Shown here in pieces: positions 4,141 to 11,530 of a stretch of DNA of 12,285 bases (the first letter of the stretch is position 1; each line of letters opens with the position of its first letter). A program made the translations under genes and the position numbers. This stretch comes from Lentimicrobium sp. (GTDB lineage Bacteria > Bacteroidota > Bacteroidia > Bacteroidales > Lentimicrobiaceae): positions 1 through 12,285 of the forward strand of contig JAAXUD010000032.1 in the NCBI GenBank assembly GCA_013336205.1, read 5' to 3'. Below the pieces are notes generated by a model. That model was not told the DNA's origin. It worked only from the letters and a program-made list of their open reading frames with translations, and made no database searches.

Positions 4141-4419
4141 TCAGGCGTTTGAAGACGGGGTTTTTACAACTGGCTTTCTTACGGATGCCGGTTTATAGAT
4201 AAACTCTTCCAGCAACCCCAGTTTTATCGCATGCTTGGTAAGACCAACCAGTGATCTGGAGTTTATCTTTCTGAGGATATTCTTACGGTGAGTTTCAACA
4301 GTGCGCACGCTGATACGCAACAAGCCGGATATTTCAACGGTACTGTATTCGCGGGCTACCAGCCTCAATACCTGCTTCTCACGGGTGGTAATATTGCTGA
4401 ATGTATTGGATTGATCCAT
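4141..4419 (-). CDS. Stand-alone LuxR/GerE-type DNA-binding protein (no receiver domain)
   Basis: A 92-residue protein made almost only of a LuxR-type HTH domain (about residues 10-72: ITTREKQVLRLV, then the recognition helix VRTVETHRKNIL, then RSLVGLTKHAI). A short tail (VRKPVVKTPSSNA) follows. There is no phosphoacceptor receiver or ligand domain, and only 81 nt separate it from the response-regulator gene upstream, so no degraded receiver is hidden there. Aligned by eye without gaps, its HTH agrees with that of the neighbouring regulator in about 31 of 64 positions; their recognition helices are almost the same (RTVETHRKNIL versus RTVDTHRKNII). It therefore probably binds related DNA sites. 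Without a receiver it cannot be controlled by phosphorylation, so it may be a constitutive co-regulator or a competitor of the full-length regulator. It could have arisen by duplication and loss of the receiver. Confidence 0.85.
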   Translation of the reverse strand: MDQSNTFSNITTREKQVLRLVAREYSTVEISGLLRISVRTVETHRKNILRKINSRSLVGLTKHAIKLGLLEEFIYKPASVRKPVVKTPSSNA

Positions 4420-4500: not shown

Positions 4501-5166
4501 TTACTGACTAAAGTCGACCAGGTTGTTTTCAATGGCAAATTTGATTAGCCCGACAAGGGTGCGGGTGCTGGTTTTCTGGATGATATTCTTCCGATGGGTA
4601 TCCACTGTTCGTTTACTGATAAAAAGTTTGTCAGCAATTTCCTCACTGGAATACTCTTCCATGATCAGTTTCACGATTTCTATTTCGCGCGGGGTAAGCT
4701 GAGCCGTATTTTTCTCAATAGCTTTCTGCCGTTTCAGACGGCTCATCATAATATTCAGCACTTCGTTGCTGTAATAGGTGCTGTTGTCTGCTATCCGTTG
4801 AATGGCATTAATAAGTTCCTGTCGTCCGGTATTTTTCAGAATATATCCCTCAGCTTCTGACATCAGAATTTCACCAACAATTTCGCGGTCGTTATACATC
4901 GAAAGTACCAGTACTTTGACCTCCGGATAATTCAGTTTTACCTGCCTGGTGAGCTCAACACCCGACATACCGGGCATGCTGATATCGGTAATCAGCAGGT
5001 CTGGTTGTTGTTTTTTAATAAATTCAAGGGCATCAAGTCCATTGCTGACTTCCCCGGCAATATGAATATTTTTTTCACGTCTGAGCAAGGCTTTAAGCCC
5101 ATCGATAAACATCTGGTGATCATCAGCAATCAGGATATTGATCGTCTTAATCTCTTCACTGCTCAT
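4501..5166 (-). CDS. NarL/FixJ-type two-component response regulator
   Basis: A 221-residue protein of normal NarL length. The receiver domain occupies about residues 9-125, with the acidic pair D15-D16, phosphoacceptor D61 (LLITDISMPGMSG), S89 and K111 (GYILKN). The LuxR-type HTH covers about residues 156-217 (QLTPREIEIVKLI, recognition helix KRTVDTHRKNII). All residues for phosphorylation are present. Its start overlaps the end of the sensor kinase gene by 11 nt (5156-5166), so the two are co-transcribed and probably translationally coupled. The kinase belongs to the HisKA_3 class, which typically pairs with NarL-type regulators. Target genes are unknown; the adjacent orphan HTH gene and the lipoprotein gene are obvious candidates. 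Confidence 0.95.
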   Translation of the reverse strand: MSSEEIKTINILIADDHQMFIDGLKALLRREKNIHIAGEVSNGLDALEFIKKQQPDLLITDISMPGMSGVELTRQVKLNYPEVKVLVLSMYNDREIVGEILMSEAEGYILKNTGRQELINAIQRIADNSTYYSNEVLNIMMSRLKRQKAIEKNTAQLTPREIEIVKLIMEEYSSEEIADKLFISKRTVDTHRKNIIQKTSTRTLVGLIKFAIENNLVDFSQ

Positions 5167-7317: not shown

Positions 7318-9492
7318 TTACCTGGTTTTTTCAGCAAATTTCAATTCATTGATAAGGTTCTGGGCGTTTGCGTATTTGTCGATAATCAGCATTACGTAGC
7401 GGATATCAACATTTATAGTCCTTTGCAATTCTGGTTCAAAGGCAATATCGCCGCTCATGGCTTCCCAGTTACCATCGAATGCCAGTCCAATAAGGTCGCC
7501 ATTTCCGTTAAGAATCGGGCTACCTGAATTGCCTCCGGTAATATCGTTGTTGCTCAAAAAGCCTACTACCATTTTGCCGTTTTTATCGGCCCATCTGCCA
7601 AAGTCTTTTTTCTCAATAATCTCTTTCAGCCTTGCGGGGACAATAAACTCTTCGTTGGTCGGATCTTCTTTTTCCAGGATACCATCGGTATAGGTTACAT
7701 AATCGTAGTGCACTGCATCGGCAGGGAAATAATCGAGCACCTGTCCAAAAGTTACCCGCATGGTTGAGTTGGCGTCAGGATAATAAACCTTGTCGGGATT
7801 AGATTTTCTCAATCCGTCAACGAACAGACGCTGTGCTTTTTTCAGTTTATCACCAAGCGGAGCCACGCTCATGTTCTGGGTCATAAATGAACTGTAGAAC
7901 GAGTTGGTTAATTTGTAAGCCAGGTCGTTTTCAAAAACCTTAATGGAAGGCTTGGCTAAAAATGCTTCATATTTCTCTCGGGTTGTCAGCACCGAAGTCT
8001 CAAACATCTTTTTTGCAAAGAGGTTTACATCACCCTTGTACTTTTTATCGATCAGGTTGAAAATATCAGGCAAGGCGTCGGCCGGAACATCCTGACGGTA
8101 CAATTCGAGAATGGCAGCCACGATTTTTTCTTCAGTAGCCGGATTGTAATCTTTAAACTGGCCTTTGCCCATTTCGTAGAATGGTGCCAGCGAAGCCTGC
8201 AATTCTTCACCTTTCTGACCACTTTTCAGAATGTTGATCATGCCCTGGGTCTGCATGGGGAATTGCATCATCTGTGAACCAAAGAACGAAATCTGAAGAT
8301 ACCAGAGTTTGGTATAGTATTTTGATTCAGCGTAAGTATTGTAAACATCAGTAAGATCCTGAAGTACATTGCCGTAAATTGCTTTGCGGCTTTCGTCGGC
8401 ATTTGCCCAGGCCGCAAATTTATCTTCAATTCCTTTTTTCTTCTCGTAAACATCGAGGCGTTTTAGGCCGCGGCTTTCACCTATTTTATTTTTCCAGAAA
8501 TTAGCGAGACCTGCGTAGTTTGAGGCATATTGGATGCGTACCTCATCACTTTTGTCCATGTCAGATTTCATAATCTCAAGTATTTTACCACCTACCTTGA
8601 TGATGGCCGGGTCAATCTCGTTGATTGTTGCCTGAATGCCGTGTGAGGTGCGGTAGCGGTCGGTAGCTCCCGGATATCCCCAGATCATTGCATAATCGCC
8701 ACGCTCCACGCCATCGAGAGATATTTTCAGGAAATGTTTGGGTTTTAACGGAATATTTTCTTTTGAATAAGGAGCAGGTTTCCCATCAGGACCTGAATAC
8801 ACCCTGAAAATACTGAAGTCGCCGGTATGGCGTGGCCACATCCAGTTGTCGGTATCGCCACCAAACTTGCCGATAGCTGATGGCGGTGCACCAGCCAAAC
8901 GGACATCTTCGTATACTTCATAAACGAAACGGTAGTATTCATTTCCGTTGTAGAATCCTTTAACTGAAACATCATATTTTCCGTCGGCAGATTCTTCTTT
9001 CTTCAGCACTTCGTATACTTTTGCGATGGCAGCCGAACGCTCACTCTCGCTCATTTCCGGCTTAACATCAGCAAGTACGCGAGTGGTAACATCGTCCATT
9101 TTCACCAGGAAAGAAACAGTAAGGCCTTCGTTGGGAAGTTCTTCTTCAAGGCTGCTTGCCCAGAATCCATCGGTCAGGTAATCGTGTTCAATGGAGCTGT
9201 GTGTCTGAATGGCATCATAGCCACAGTGGTGATTGGTAAAAAGCAGTCCTTTGTCAGAAACAACTTCGGCAGTGCAGAAATCGCCAAGGTTAACGATGGC
9301 ATCTTTCAGGCTTGAATTGTTGATATCATAAATCTCCTGCGGGGTAAGTTTCAGCCCCATTTTTTGCATATCCACATAATTCAGTCTTTCAACGAACATC
9401 GGCAGCCACATGCCTTCGTCGGGTGGATTTCCAGCCCGGAGGCCTGCTGCAATACCTGCAATCAAAATCAGTGTAAATAGAATCTTCTTCAT
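7318..9492 (-). CDS. dpp7: S46 family serine dipeptidyl peptidase, DPP7 type
   Basis: A 724-residue protein, close to the roughly 710-720 usual for S46. A signal peptide (MKKILFTLILIAGIAAGLRA) is followed by the peptidase. The chymotrypsin-like triad is recognisable: H89 in FTNHHCGYD, D225 in RHTGDFSIFR, S656 in TGGNSGSP. The N-terminal NPPDEGMW segment matches the region of the family that binds the substrate amino terminus. Eighteen residues after the catalytic Ser, where DPP11 has an Arg that selects Asp/Glu at P1, this protein has Gly (G674 in FDGNWEAMSGD), as in DPP7, which prefers hydrophobic P1 residues. It should release dipeptides from peptide N-termini in the periplasm, feeding amino-acid catabolism. 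It is followed by its own terminator. Upstream lies a 340-nt gap with unusual regulatory features, and then a second, zinc-type DPP III-like hydrolase gene. S46 genes are common in Bacteroidota and some Proteobacteria. Confidence 0.95.
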   Translation of the reverse strand: MKKILFTLILIAGIAAGLRAGNPPDEGMWLPMFVERLNYVDMQKMGLKLTPQEIYDINNSSLKDAIVNLGDFCTAEVVSDKGLLFTNHHCGYDAIQTHSSIEHDYLTDGFWASSLEEELPNEGLTVSFLVKMDDVTTRVLADVKPEMSESERSAAIAKVYEVLKKEESADGKYDVSVKGFYNGNEYYRFVYEVYEDVRLAGAPPSAIGKFGGDTDNWMWPRHTGDFSIFRVYSGPDGKPAPYSKENIPLKPKHFLKISLDGVERGDYAMIWGYPGATDRYRTSHGIQATINEIDPAIIKVGGKILEIMKSDMDKSDEVRIQYASNYAGLANFWKNKIGESRGLKRLDVYEKKKGIEDKFAAWANADESRKAIYGNVLQDLTDVYNTYAESKYYTKLWYLQISFFGSQMMQFPMQTQGMINILKSGQKGEELQASLAPFYEMGKGQFKDYNPATEEKIVAAILELYRQDVPADALPDIFNLIDKKYKGDVNLFAKKMFETSVLTTREKYEAFLAKPSIKVFENDLAYKLTNSFYSSFMTQNMSVAPLGDKLKKAQRLFVDGLRKSNPDKVYYPDANSTMRVTFGQVLDYFPADAVHYDYVTYTDGILEKEDPTNEEFIVPARLKEIIEKKDFGRWADKNGKMVVGFLSNNDITGGNSGSPILNGNGDLIGLAFDGNWEAMSGDIAFEPELQRTINVDIRYVMLIIDKYANAQNLINELKFAEKTR

Positions 9493-9573: not shown

Positions 9574-9590
9574 TGCCTAAAATCGTGCCA
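9574..9590 (-). promoter_or_regulatory. Sigma-54-like -24/-12 element upstream of DPP7
   Basis: The minus strand reads TGGCACGATTTTAGGCA. The TGGCACG half equals the consensus -24 box of sigma-54 promoters (TGGCACG-N4-TTGCA). The -12 side is weaker (AGGCA instead of TTGCA), and 11 rather than 10 nt separate the GG and GC pairs, which would normally harm function. A start near 9563 would give a leader of about 70 nt. Tandem upstream sites at 9654-9689 fit an enhancer. I treat it as a candidate only. Confidence 0.4.
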
Positions 9591-9617: not shown

Positions 9618-9653
9618 TATGAAAGATCAGCTGTGTGTATTATGCATCAGGCA

Positions 9654-9689
9654 TGTTCGCTTTTGTACAGCATTGTTCGTTTTTGGACA
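9654..9689 (-). promoter_or_regulatory. Two tandem 16-bp imperfect palindromes, candidate activator sites
   Basis: On the minus strand TGTCCAAAAACGAACA (9689-9674) and TGTACAAAAGCGAACA (9669-9654) agree in 14 of 16 positions and are separated by 4 bp, so their centres are 20 bp apart, about two helical turns. Each is an imperfect palindrome of the form TGTnC-N6-GAACA. Such spacing is typical of two dimers bound to the same DNA face. The centres lie about 98 and 118 bp upstream of the start predicted from the sigma-54-like element, the usual range for enhancer sites. Confidence 0.6.
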
Positions 9690-9697
9690 AGGGGACT

Positions 9698-9733
9698 AAA
9701 AGCAGCAACACGATTCCTGGTGTTGCTGCTTTT
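9698..9733 (-). terminator. Bidirectional hairpin terminator after the M49-like gene
   Basis: AAAAGCAGCAACAC (9698-9711) and GTGTTGCTGCTTTT (9720-9733) form a perfect 14-bp inverted repeat with an 8-nt loop. The A/T ends provide a short T-run in both directions. It lies 100 nt past the stop codon of the M49-like gene and just upstream of the tandem sites for the DPP7 gene, so it insulates the two. Confidence 0.8.
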
Positions 9734-9832: not shown

Positions 9833-11530
9833 CTAGAGTCCCAGTTCGCTTTTCCCTTGCTCAAAAACAATATCCACCGGAATGCTGGCGCTTTTCAGCT
9901 TGTCGAGGTCTGATTGGAGCTGGACTGGAATTACCGATTTAGTGCTGATGAGTTCTTTCACTTTACTGTAATCGCCATCGCCCTGCATGGTAAGAATCAT
10001 GCCTCCCAGGCTTTCAACGGCCAGTTTCATTTTATCGAAATTCACCAGGTAAGTGCCATTTGCCTGGTAAGTATAGGCGCCGTTTTCTGCAAAATGGGCA
10101 AAGGTGAGCATATTGGCTTTGCCATGCGCGCTGGCAGCTCCAAAACGTACTGAACGGAAAATTCCGGCCATAAAGGTTACATAGTTGTCCATTACTTCAC
10201 CTTCTTTCAGCTCGCCCATTTCATAAAGCCTGGTCACTAAATAAAGTCCCAGAATATCGGCTTTGGCTTCTTCGATGGCCGAATATTGTTCTTTGAGTGC
10301 TTCTCTTACCGAGCCGTTGCCGTCGAGGGTATTTTTGATACCGAGTCCGTGGGCTACTTCATGAAACATAGTATTGGCGAAGAAAGCATCAAATTTTATG
10401 AATTTGCGTTGTGACGAATCAATCAGCATATCGGAAATGGGAACCAGGATCTTGTCGAACTTGGCTTTCATAGCATTTTTCAACTGCAGTTTGCGCGAGC
10501 CTTTTTTCAACTGGACTTCTTCATCGTTGGGCAGATTAATGGCGATGGTTTTGCTTCCTGAGTTGCAATCGCCGGCATAGTAAACCACATCATAGGCATT
10601 GAGGTCGGCGTCTGAACCGGGAACTTCGTTCTTATATTTCTGATCAACCGGTAATCCTTTCTGTAATTCAGGCAACAGGGCGGCGAAATGGGCAAGCCGT
10701 TCGCTCCATTCAATGTCTTTAATCAGGATAAAGGCTTCCTGTGCGGCTTTGGTTCCGTAAAGGGCATCTTCATAGTTTTCGATGGGACCAACCACGAAAT
10801 CGATGTTGGAGGTTTTCATATCCATCCAGGCAAAGTCGCTTTCCTGGTATTTATCGGTAAGCAGGGCTTCGGCACGAAGCTCAAGGTATTTCTTCAGGCC
10901 AGCATCTTCAGCAAGTGCAGACGCTTGTTTCAGTAGGTCGGCAGCTTTTTTGATTTTAGAAGCATAGGCTTCGTGGTACCATACAACCCGCAAAGTGCCA
11001 TCTTCGTTGCGACGGATTAATGTATAAAGGCTCAATTTGTCTGGATTCTGAAGGCTGTCGAATTCCTCTTTGGTCATGTCGGCCGGGTAGAAGTTAGCGC
11101 CCAGCGGTTTTTCACCAACGCCTTTGATAAATGAATTGTTGCCATTCAACCTGTCCCAGGGGCCGTAGTTGATTTCAGCAAATTTGCGGGTAGCTTCATC
11201 GCTGATGCGGGAGAGAAATGCCTCTTTATTACCGAGCGATTGCTGCCAGTAAATATCGTCCATTAGCTGTGCCGCTTCGAATAAAAGAGGCAGCATTTGT
11301 TTTTCTTTTTCTGATAAATGGCTGAGTTCAGCGGTCAATTTAACAGTGGCGTAGGTAGCCAGGCGCTGAGCCACATCAGCGGCATCAGTGGCGGTAAGCG
11401 CTTCGCCGGCAGGCAGCACGCCCTGGTAGTTATTTTCCATTTCTTCTTCTGTTTTGATGCTTTTTCCGCAACTGGTAACGATTGCCAGCATGCTAACAAC
11501 CGCAACAGCGGTTATGACTTTGCGCAACAT
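9833..11530 (-). CDS. Lipoprotein M49/dipeptidyl peptidase III-like zinc hydrolase
   Basis: A 565-residue protein with a lipoprotein signal peptide (MLRKVITAVAVVSMLAIVTSC, lipidated Cys at 21, then GKS). The zinc-site motif is HEVAHGLG with H390, E391 and H394. A second motif, SAIEEAKADILGLY, carries E420-E421, with E421 the likely third ligand, matching the EECRAE motif of peptidase family M49. Classical DPP III has HEXXGH with one extra residue between the histidines. This protein has the shorter HExxH, as in the DPP III-like domain fused to a Nudix domain in plant Nudix hydrolase 3. Homologues in Bacteroidota have often carried misleading names such as dihydrofolate reductase or MutT; no such domain is visible here. 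Probable role: membrane-anchored metallopeptidase acting on small peptides in the periplasm or at the surface, though the substrate is unproven. The conserved YVTFMAGIFRSVRFGAASAHGKAN stretch is also family-like. It is upstream of the DPP7 gene but separated by a terminator. Confidence 0.85.
   Translation of the reverse strand: MLRKVITAVAVVSMLAIVTSCGKSIKTEEEMENNYQGVLPAGEALTATDAADVAQRLATYATVKLTAELSHLSEKEKQMLPLLFEAAQLMDDIYWQQSLGNKEAFLSRISDEATRKFAEINYGPWDRLNGNNSFIKGVGEKPLGANFYPADMTKEEFDSLQNPDKLSLYTLIRRNEDGTLRVVWYHEAYASKIKKAADLLKQASALAEDAGLKKYLELRAEALLTDKYQESDFAWMDMKTSNIDFVVGPIENYEDALYGTKAAQEAFILIKDIEWSERLAHFAALLPELQKGLPVDQKYKNEVPGSDADLNAYDVVYYAGDCNSGSKTIAINLPNDEEVQLKKGSRKLQLKNAMKAKFDKILVPISDMLIDSSQRKFIKFDAFFANTMFHEVAHGLGIKNTLDGNGSVREALKEQYSAIEEAKADILGLYLVTRLYEMGELKEGEVMDNYVTFMAGIFRSVRFGAASAHGKANMLTFAHFAENGAYTYQANGTYLVNFDKMKLAVESLGGMILTMQGDGDYSKVKELISTKSVIPVQLQSDLDKLKSASIPVDIVFEQGKSELGL

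Follow-up and report, generated by a model that had tools for sequence, protein, structure and literature searches.

A putative sigma-54 promoter with paired upstream sites at a DPP7-type peptidase gene and at exporter genes in Lentimicrobium

Two near-identical 16-bp sequences upstream of an S46 dipeptidyl peptidase gene in Lentimicrobium sp. are probably tandem enhancer sites for a response regulator encoded on another contig of the same genome (C882), which would drive sigma-54 dependent transcription of this DPP7-type gene. This reading draws on the computed sites and their spacing, the promoter box, their conservation, the recurrence of the layout at other genes, the presence of both sigma-54 and the activator, and the joint absence of sites and activator in one relative.

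Results

Paired palindromic sites and a sigma-54-like box upstream of the S46 gene

The features below lie in the window, by which we mean the whole stretch of 12,285 nucleotides that was analysed; the activator, kinase and sigma-54 genes are all located outside it.

7318..9492, minus strand: target gene for an S46 dipeptidyl peptidase, which the Gly/Arg rule places in the DPP7 type (PF10459, E 2.3e-240, residues 25-718)
9564, minus strand: approximate transcription start as inferred from the box position and -24/-12 geometry
9575..9579, minus strand: putative -12 element TAGGC (N10-position G retained, next C replaced by G, GC one base later)
9584..9590, minus strand: sigma-54-like -24 element TGGCACG (16 of the 17 S46 upstreams in the genus have TGGCA[CT]G)
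9654..9669, minus strand: proximal putative enhancer (UAS) site TGTACAAAAGCGAACA, 79 bp 5' of the box
9674..9689, minus strand: distal putative enhancer (UAS) site TGTCCAAAAACGAACA, an imperfect palindrome whose start is 99 bp 5' of the TGGCAC box, kept in genus orthologs
9698..9733, no strand assigned: hairpin with a perfect 14-bp stem, bordering the promoter region on its outer side and possibly terminating the upstream gene

As the preliminary description of this DNA had it, the two 16-mers are on the minus strand (9689-9674 and 9669-9654) with a 20-bp start-to-start period and differ at two of 16 positions (4 and 10). Both also fit an imperfect palindrome, TGTnC-N6-GnACA, a feature absent from that description, which occurs twice in the window as against 0.11 times expected from 200 dinucleotide shuffles. 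The window contains one exact match to the strict tandem pair, and a second match (9634-9669) overlaps the first and requires three mismatches; the shuffle mean for the pair was 0.01 and none of the 200 shuffles reached two. The sites were correctly placed in non-coding DNA, lying between an M49-like gene (end 9833) and the S46 gene (start 9492), and the sole open reading frame overlapping them is a mechanical 100-aa ORF on the opposite strand. They sit just inside the hairpin at 9698-9733, which has 14 of 14 pairs and an 8-nt loop. As a hairpin the terminator proposed beside the sites is real, but it went unreported in the terminator scan, for which a T run of just four bases is the apparent cause.

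A TGGCACGATTTTAGGCA block occupies 9590-9574, 98 bp 5' of the S46 start codon, and begins with TGGCAC, the sigma-54 -24 consensus. Its -12 region has the form GG-N10-GG instead of the strict GG-N10-GC, the GC being shifted by one base. The genome encodes sigma-54 (PF04552 at G000:C819, E 3.1e-52), and PF04552 was detected in 19 of 21 genomes searched. Upstream activating sites for NtrC-family enhancer-binding proteins are palindromic, mostly paired, and located tens to hundreds of bp 5' of a sigma-54 promoter, and the palindromic sites here, paired and situated 99 bp (distal) and 79 bp (proximal) 5' of the box, have the arrangement of such enhancers. A first box search of the genome with a gap of 50-80 bp matched only the window and C842:4284-4366; the true distal gap is 83-86 bp and lies outside that range.

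Conservation of the promoter in orthologous S46 upstreams

The search covered 60 genomes including that of the window. Of these, 19 belong to the genus, and in 17 of the 19 an S46 copy with 71-100% identity is present, while the copies in G003 and G007 are more distant. The box TGGCA[CT]G is present within 130 bp of the start in 16 of the 17 genus upstreams, own included, a count which like the others within the genus represents non-independent trials because the genomes are related (the S46 starts of L126-L128 are extrapolated, their alignments beginning at residue 17-19). In 13 of the 16 boxed upstreams a distal site matching at least seven of eight consensus positions lies 99 bp (four cases) or 100 bp (nine cases) before the box, against a null of 0.00375 per locus for the best of seven offsets. 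The same 13 have a second site or half-site, with CGnACA matched at four or more of five positions, 20-21 bp further on (20 in the window and 21 in the other 12), and in most relatives it is chiefly this right half of the proximal site that is retained. In the remaining three the best site is at 91, 89 and 89 bp with partners at 69, 110 and 110 bp scoring 5, 5 and 7 of 8, two of them weak, so that the sites there have apparently moved by about one helical turn. The G at position 14 is present in 14 of the 16 boxes.

An exact palindrome occurs in 8 of the 17 genus upstreams (mononucleotide-shuffle mean 0.06), and in 16 of them the best site within 300 bp matches seven or more of the eight consensus positions, the exception being L125 with a score of 6. 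Absence upstream of close orthologs, named beforehand as a result that would speak against the pair, is thus not what we observed. Bases around the sites diverge among orthologs while the sites stay at a fixed distance.

Among 80 named S46 loci, 74 have no exact palindrome between -400 and +60 and six have one (L016, L018 and L032 cover less than 400 bp upstream), so control of S46 genes by these sites is not general. The upstream sequence of one locus, L010, is identical to that of genus member G013. Pairs with a 22-bp period are found at L023, L024 and L044, the second L044 site having one mismatch; L023 and L024 have no convincing -24/-12 element at 100 bp, and L044 has only a weaker TGGCC-type box, placed by eye. 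No exact palindrome was found in the 330 bp upstream of the best S46 copies from other families (L129-L141).

The same layout precedes exporter and secreted-protein genes

Searching the 19 genus genomes for the box together with an exact palindrome gave 84 matches, three pairs of which share one palindrome, versus 25 for the reversed pattern. Of these matches 46 have a length of 104-107, four of the 31 allowed lengths (96-126), a band chosen post hoc after the data had been inspected. With narrow spacing, 195 genomes from elsewhere in the order gave 146 matches versus 40 for the control.

Thirty regions were chosen by hand and fetched, and a box was sought 98-102 bp from an exact palindrome, which yielded 27 distinct layout boxes at a distal distance of mostly 100-102 bp within the range searched. 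Grouped by likeness of their translated starts, with Pfam run on representatives, the genes behind these boxes comprise 12 FtsX/MacB permeases, five adaptor proteins and five small secreted proteins, with three further boxes in front of genes for a protein no longer than 91 residues and two unassigned. A GnACA half-site follows 19-23 bp on in 22 of the 27, the five without it being all three of the 91-residue class and the two unassigned. The G at position 14, which was outside the search pattern, is present in 25 of the 27 and an exact GC at -12 in nine. No box was found at 98-102 bp from the palindromes at C880, C376 and C697 of the own genome, nor at the length-118 match at G010:C82.

Behind the layout promoters of L205, L206, L207, L212 and L222 stands a family of proteins with 139-147 residues, a signal-like start and repeated VNDIPFNT-like motifs, and the one member tested had no Pfam match.

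A candidate activator with the site at its own locus

At C882:902-2281 the genome encodes a response regulator composed of a receiver, a Sigma54_activat domain and a Fis-type HTH, followed by a histidine kinase gene. A palindrome at C882:815-830 lies between this gene and a divergent gene for an adaptor protein. The assignment of the adaptor to HlyD_3 comes from G010, which has the gene at full length with those for an ABC ATPase and a MacB/FtsX permease next in line. The adaptor side of C882, leading into a MacB-type exporter operon, has the complete layout, with the palindrome, a second half-site 22 bp on and TGGCACAATATTGGC 102 bp from the palindrome start. A protein with an AAA+ sigma-54 domain and an HTH is hence encoded beside a site of the type seen at the S46 gene. 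In all 16 assessable genus loci the palindrome lies no more than 350 bp upstream of the activator gene (shuffle mean 0.04), the G016 locus L163 being left out of the count as it misses the gene start. Activator relatives in other families have it in 5 of 13 loci and lack it in eight.

Two genes past the kinase, L203:4294-5301 (G000:C882) encodes an M28 protein whose nearest solved chains are named glutamine cyclotransferase (6qro, E 2.5e-115). Glutaminyl cyclase is thought, in an excerpt of PMC10653852, to shield exported proteins from aminopeptidases including DPP7, and for that reason the position of this gene near the candidate DPP7 regulator may be meaningful.

The layout could also belong to sigma-54 enhancers at which one or more different enhancer-binding proteins with similar Fis-type domains act on the S46 gene, a reading we consider unlikely although it has more in its favour than the other alternatives. 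The own genome has six strong Sigma54_activat genes and the proximal sites differ between target classes. In addition the activator, kinase and adaptor are represented in G007 (89% complete) by distant relatives only, yet a layout promoter persists there at a small secreted gene, which counts against a strict one-activator model and means that another activator may read the site there. Against this reading, of the six strong activator genes only that on C882 has the palindrome, the five other loci having none in the stretches fetched (0/5). G011 (97% complete) likewise argues for the C882 activator, as the relatives found in it are all distant, for the activator (37% identity) as well as the kinase (E 2.8e-19) and the adaptor (E 1e-8), and its S46 upstream (L125) is the only one of 17 in which box and palindrome are both missing. 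It is also alone among the 19 genus genomes in having no exact match of length 104-107. The activator search scored 27 first-look candidates per genome, 37 in G011 and 40 in G007. L125 has TTGCACGATTCA roughly where its relatives carry TGGCACGATTTT, and this is possibly a decayed box.

The S46 gene and its neighbors

On its sequence the S46 product is DPP7-type, having an S46 domain over almost its entire length and a Gly at the position that discriminates DPP7 from DPP11 (FDGNWE, versus FDRVWE in the aligned Asp/Glu-specific enzyme, a 5jxf chain). The rule for this Gly/Arg position is taken from a reference title in PMC10653852. PDB relatives of the protein are 5jxf and 4xzy.

The gene preceding it, 9833-11530, encodes an M49-like peptidase with a modest family score of 53.8 bits. 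The classical M49 motif is HEXXGH and this protein has HEVAH at the corresponding position.

Downstream of the S46 gene the next two genes in the window encode a TPR histidine kinase and a LuxR-type response regulator (4501-5166). Adjoining this full-length regulator and the kinase is a 92-residue LuxR-type HTH protein (4141-4419) with no receiver domain.

Such a two-component pair might suggest that the 16-mers are operators at a sigma-A promoter for a dimeric regulator, whether repressor or activator, such as the protein encoded at 4501-5166, with sigma-54 uninvolved, and paired palindromes would also suit classical dimers. We consider this very improbable, since some 100 bp separate the sites from a conserved box matching the -24 element of sigma-54 promoters, and the layout recurs beside the gene of a sigma-54 activator.

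Across the own genome the single palindrome shows no enrichment (29 occurrences versus 34 for the reversed control), and the tandem pair with up to two mismatches occurs once per strand, the same as its control, and both were rejected as genome-wide signals. The genome-wide search for strict pairs that had been suggested as a check returned a unique pair and no set of such pairs. The significance of the pair lies in its conservation among orthologs and in its position relative to the promoter box. That the repeat is a chance occurrence or a transcript-level hairpin of no regulatory meaning, as such background counts might imply, is scarcely credible given the fixed distance in 13 of 16 boxed ortholog upstreams despite diverging surroundings and the palindrome upstream of all 16 assessable activator loci of the genus.

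Discussion

In the mechanism we propose for enhancer sites read by the C882 activator, this response regulator would be phosphorylated, with a kinase gene adjacent to its own, and its dimers would bind both sites upstream of the S46 gene. The activator would then assemble its AAA+ ring and loop across 63-83 bp to the TGGCACG box, where opening by sigma-54 RNA polymerase would turn on the DPP7-type gene. A MacB-type exporter, other FtsX/MacB permeases and small secreted proteins would be co-activated. Binding, the identity of the binding activator, activation over repression and an envelope or peptide-stress role are the steps that we infer. Paired sites for a dimeric regulator of the S46 gene, as originally suggested, are borne out by the 13 of 16 upstreams with fixed distance and the three shifted by about one turn, while for the regulator itself a sigma-54 enhancer-binding protein working from a distance is now the likeliest candidate.

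The control of a nutritional peptidase had also been proposed. Conservation upstream of the S46 gene agrees with control of the peptidase, but a purely nutritional circuit is disfavoured because MacB/FtsX exporters and secreted proteins are the common targets, and these shared targets make an envelope or peptide-handling response appear likelier than feeding alone. More tentatively, and with the balance still somewhat against it, they may form an apparently undescribed Bacteroidales sigma-54 regulon of near-rigid enhancer geometry, with paired sites ~100 bp from the -24 box at several unrelated genes that, where they shift at S46 genes, do so by about one helical turn, and in which MacB/FtsX exporters and a periplasmic dipeptidase serve one response to harmful or misfolded envelope peptides. 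No description of the present regulon was found in the literature searched, which consisted of titles and the beginnings of abstracts. To our knowledge the number of sigma-54 regulons characterized in Bacteroidota is small, and the layout offers a testable one, with a candidate activator, its site, a rule for the spacing and a limited set of targets. DPP7 is mainly described as a feeding enzyme, and the layout suggests that in this genus it has been recruited to an exporter and envelope response.

The sigma-54 (SM4) regulon of Flavobacterium psychrophilum, from the same phylum, has -24/-12 promoters at envelope-stress, exported-protein and protein quality-control genes (PMC9723704, in excerpt) and is thus similar in its envelope and exported targets. 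Dpp11, the S46 enzyme of that species, is assigned there to motif SM5 and not to the sigma-54 motif, and the same excerpt names no enhancer site (PMC9723704). Porphyromonas gingivalis DPP7 and DPP11 are homologous members of the S46 family, periplasmic and described as feeding enzymes, and sigma-54 control is not mentioned in the excerpt concerned (PMC10653852).

The system described here resembles NtrC-family systems in its TGGCA-type -24 box, in an activator with receiver, Sigma54_activat and Fis HTH domains and in paired palindromic sites upstream. It differs from them in that the GC at -12 is often reduced to G and in that the distance from distal site to box is nearly fixed at several unrelated genes. 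Enhancers of the sigma-54 class are usually thought to be tolerant of variable distance, which is why a near-fixed spacing of 100 bp is of interest.
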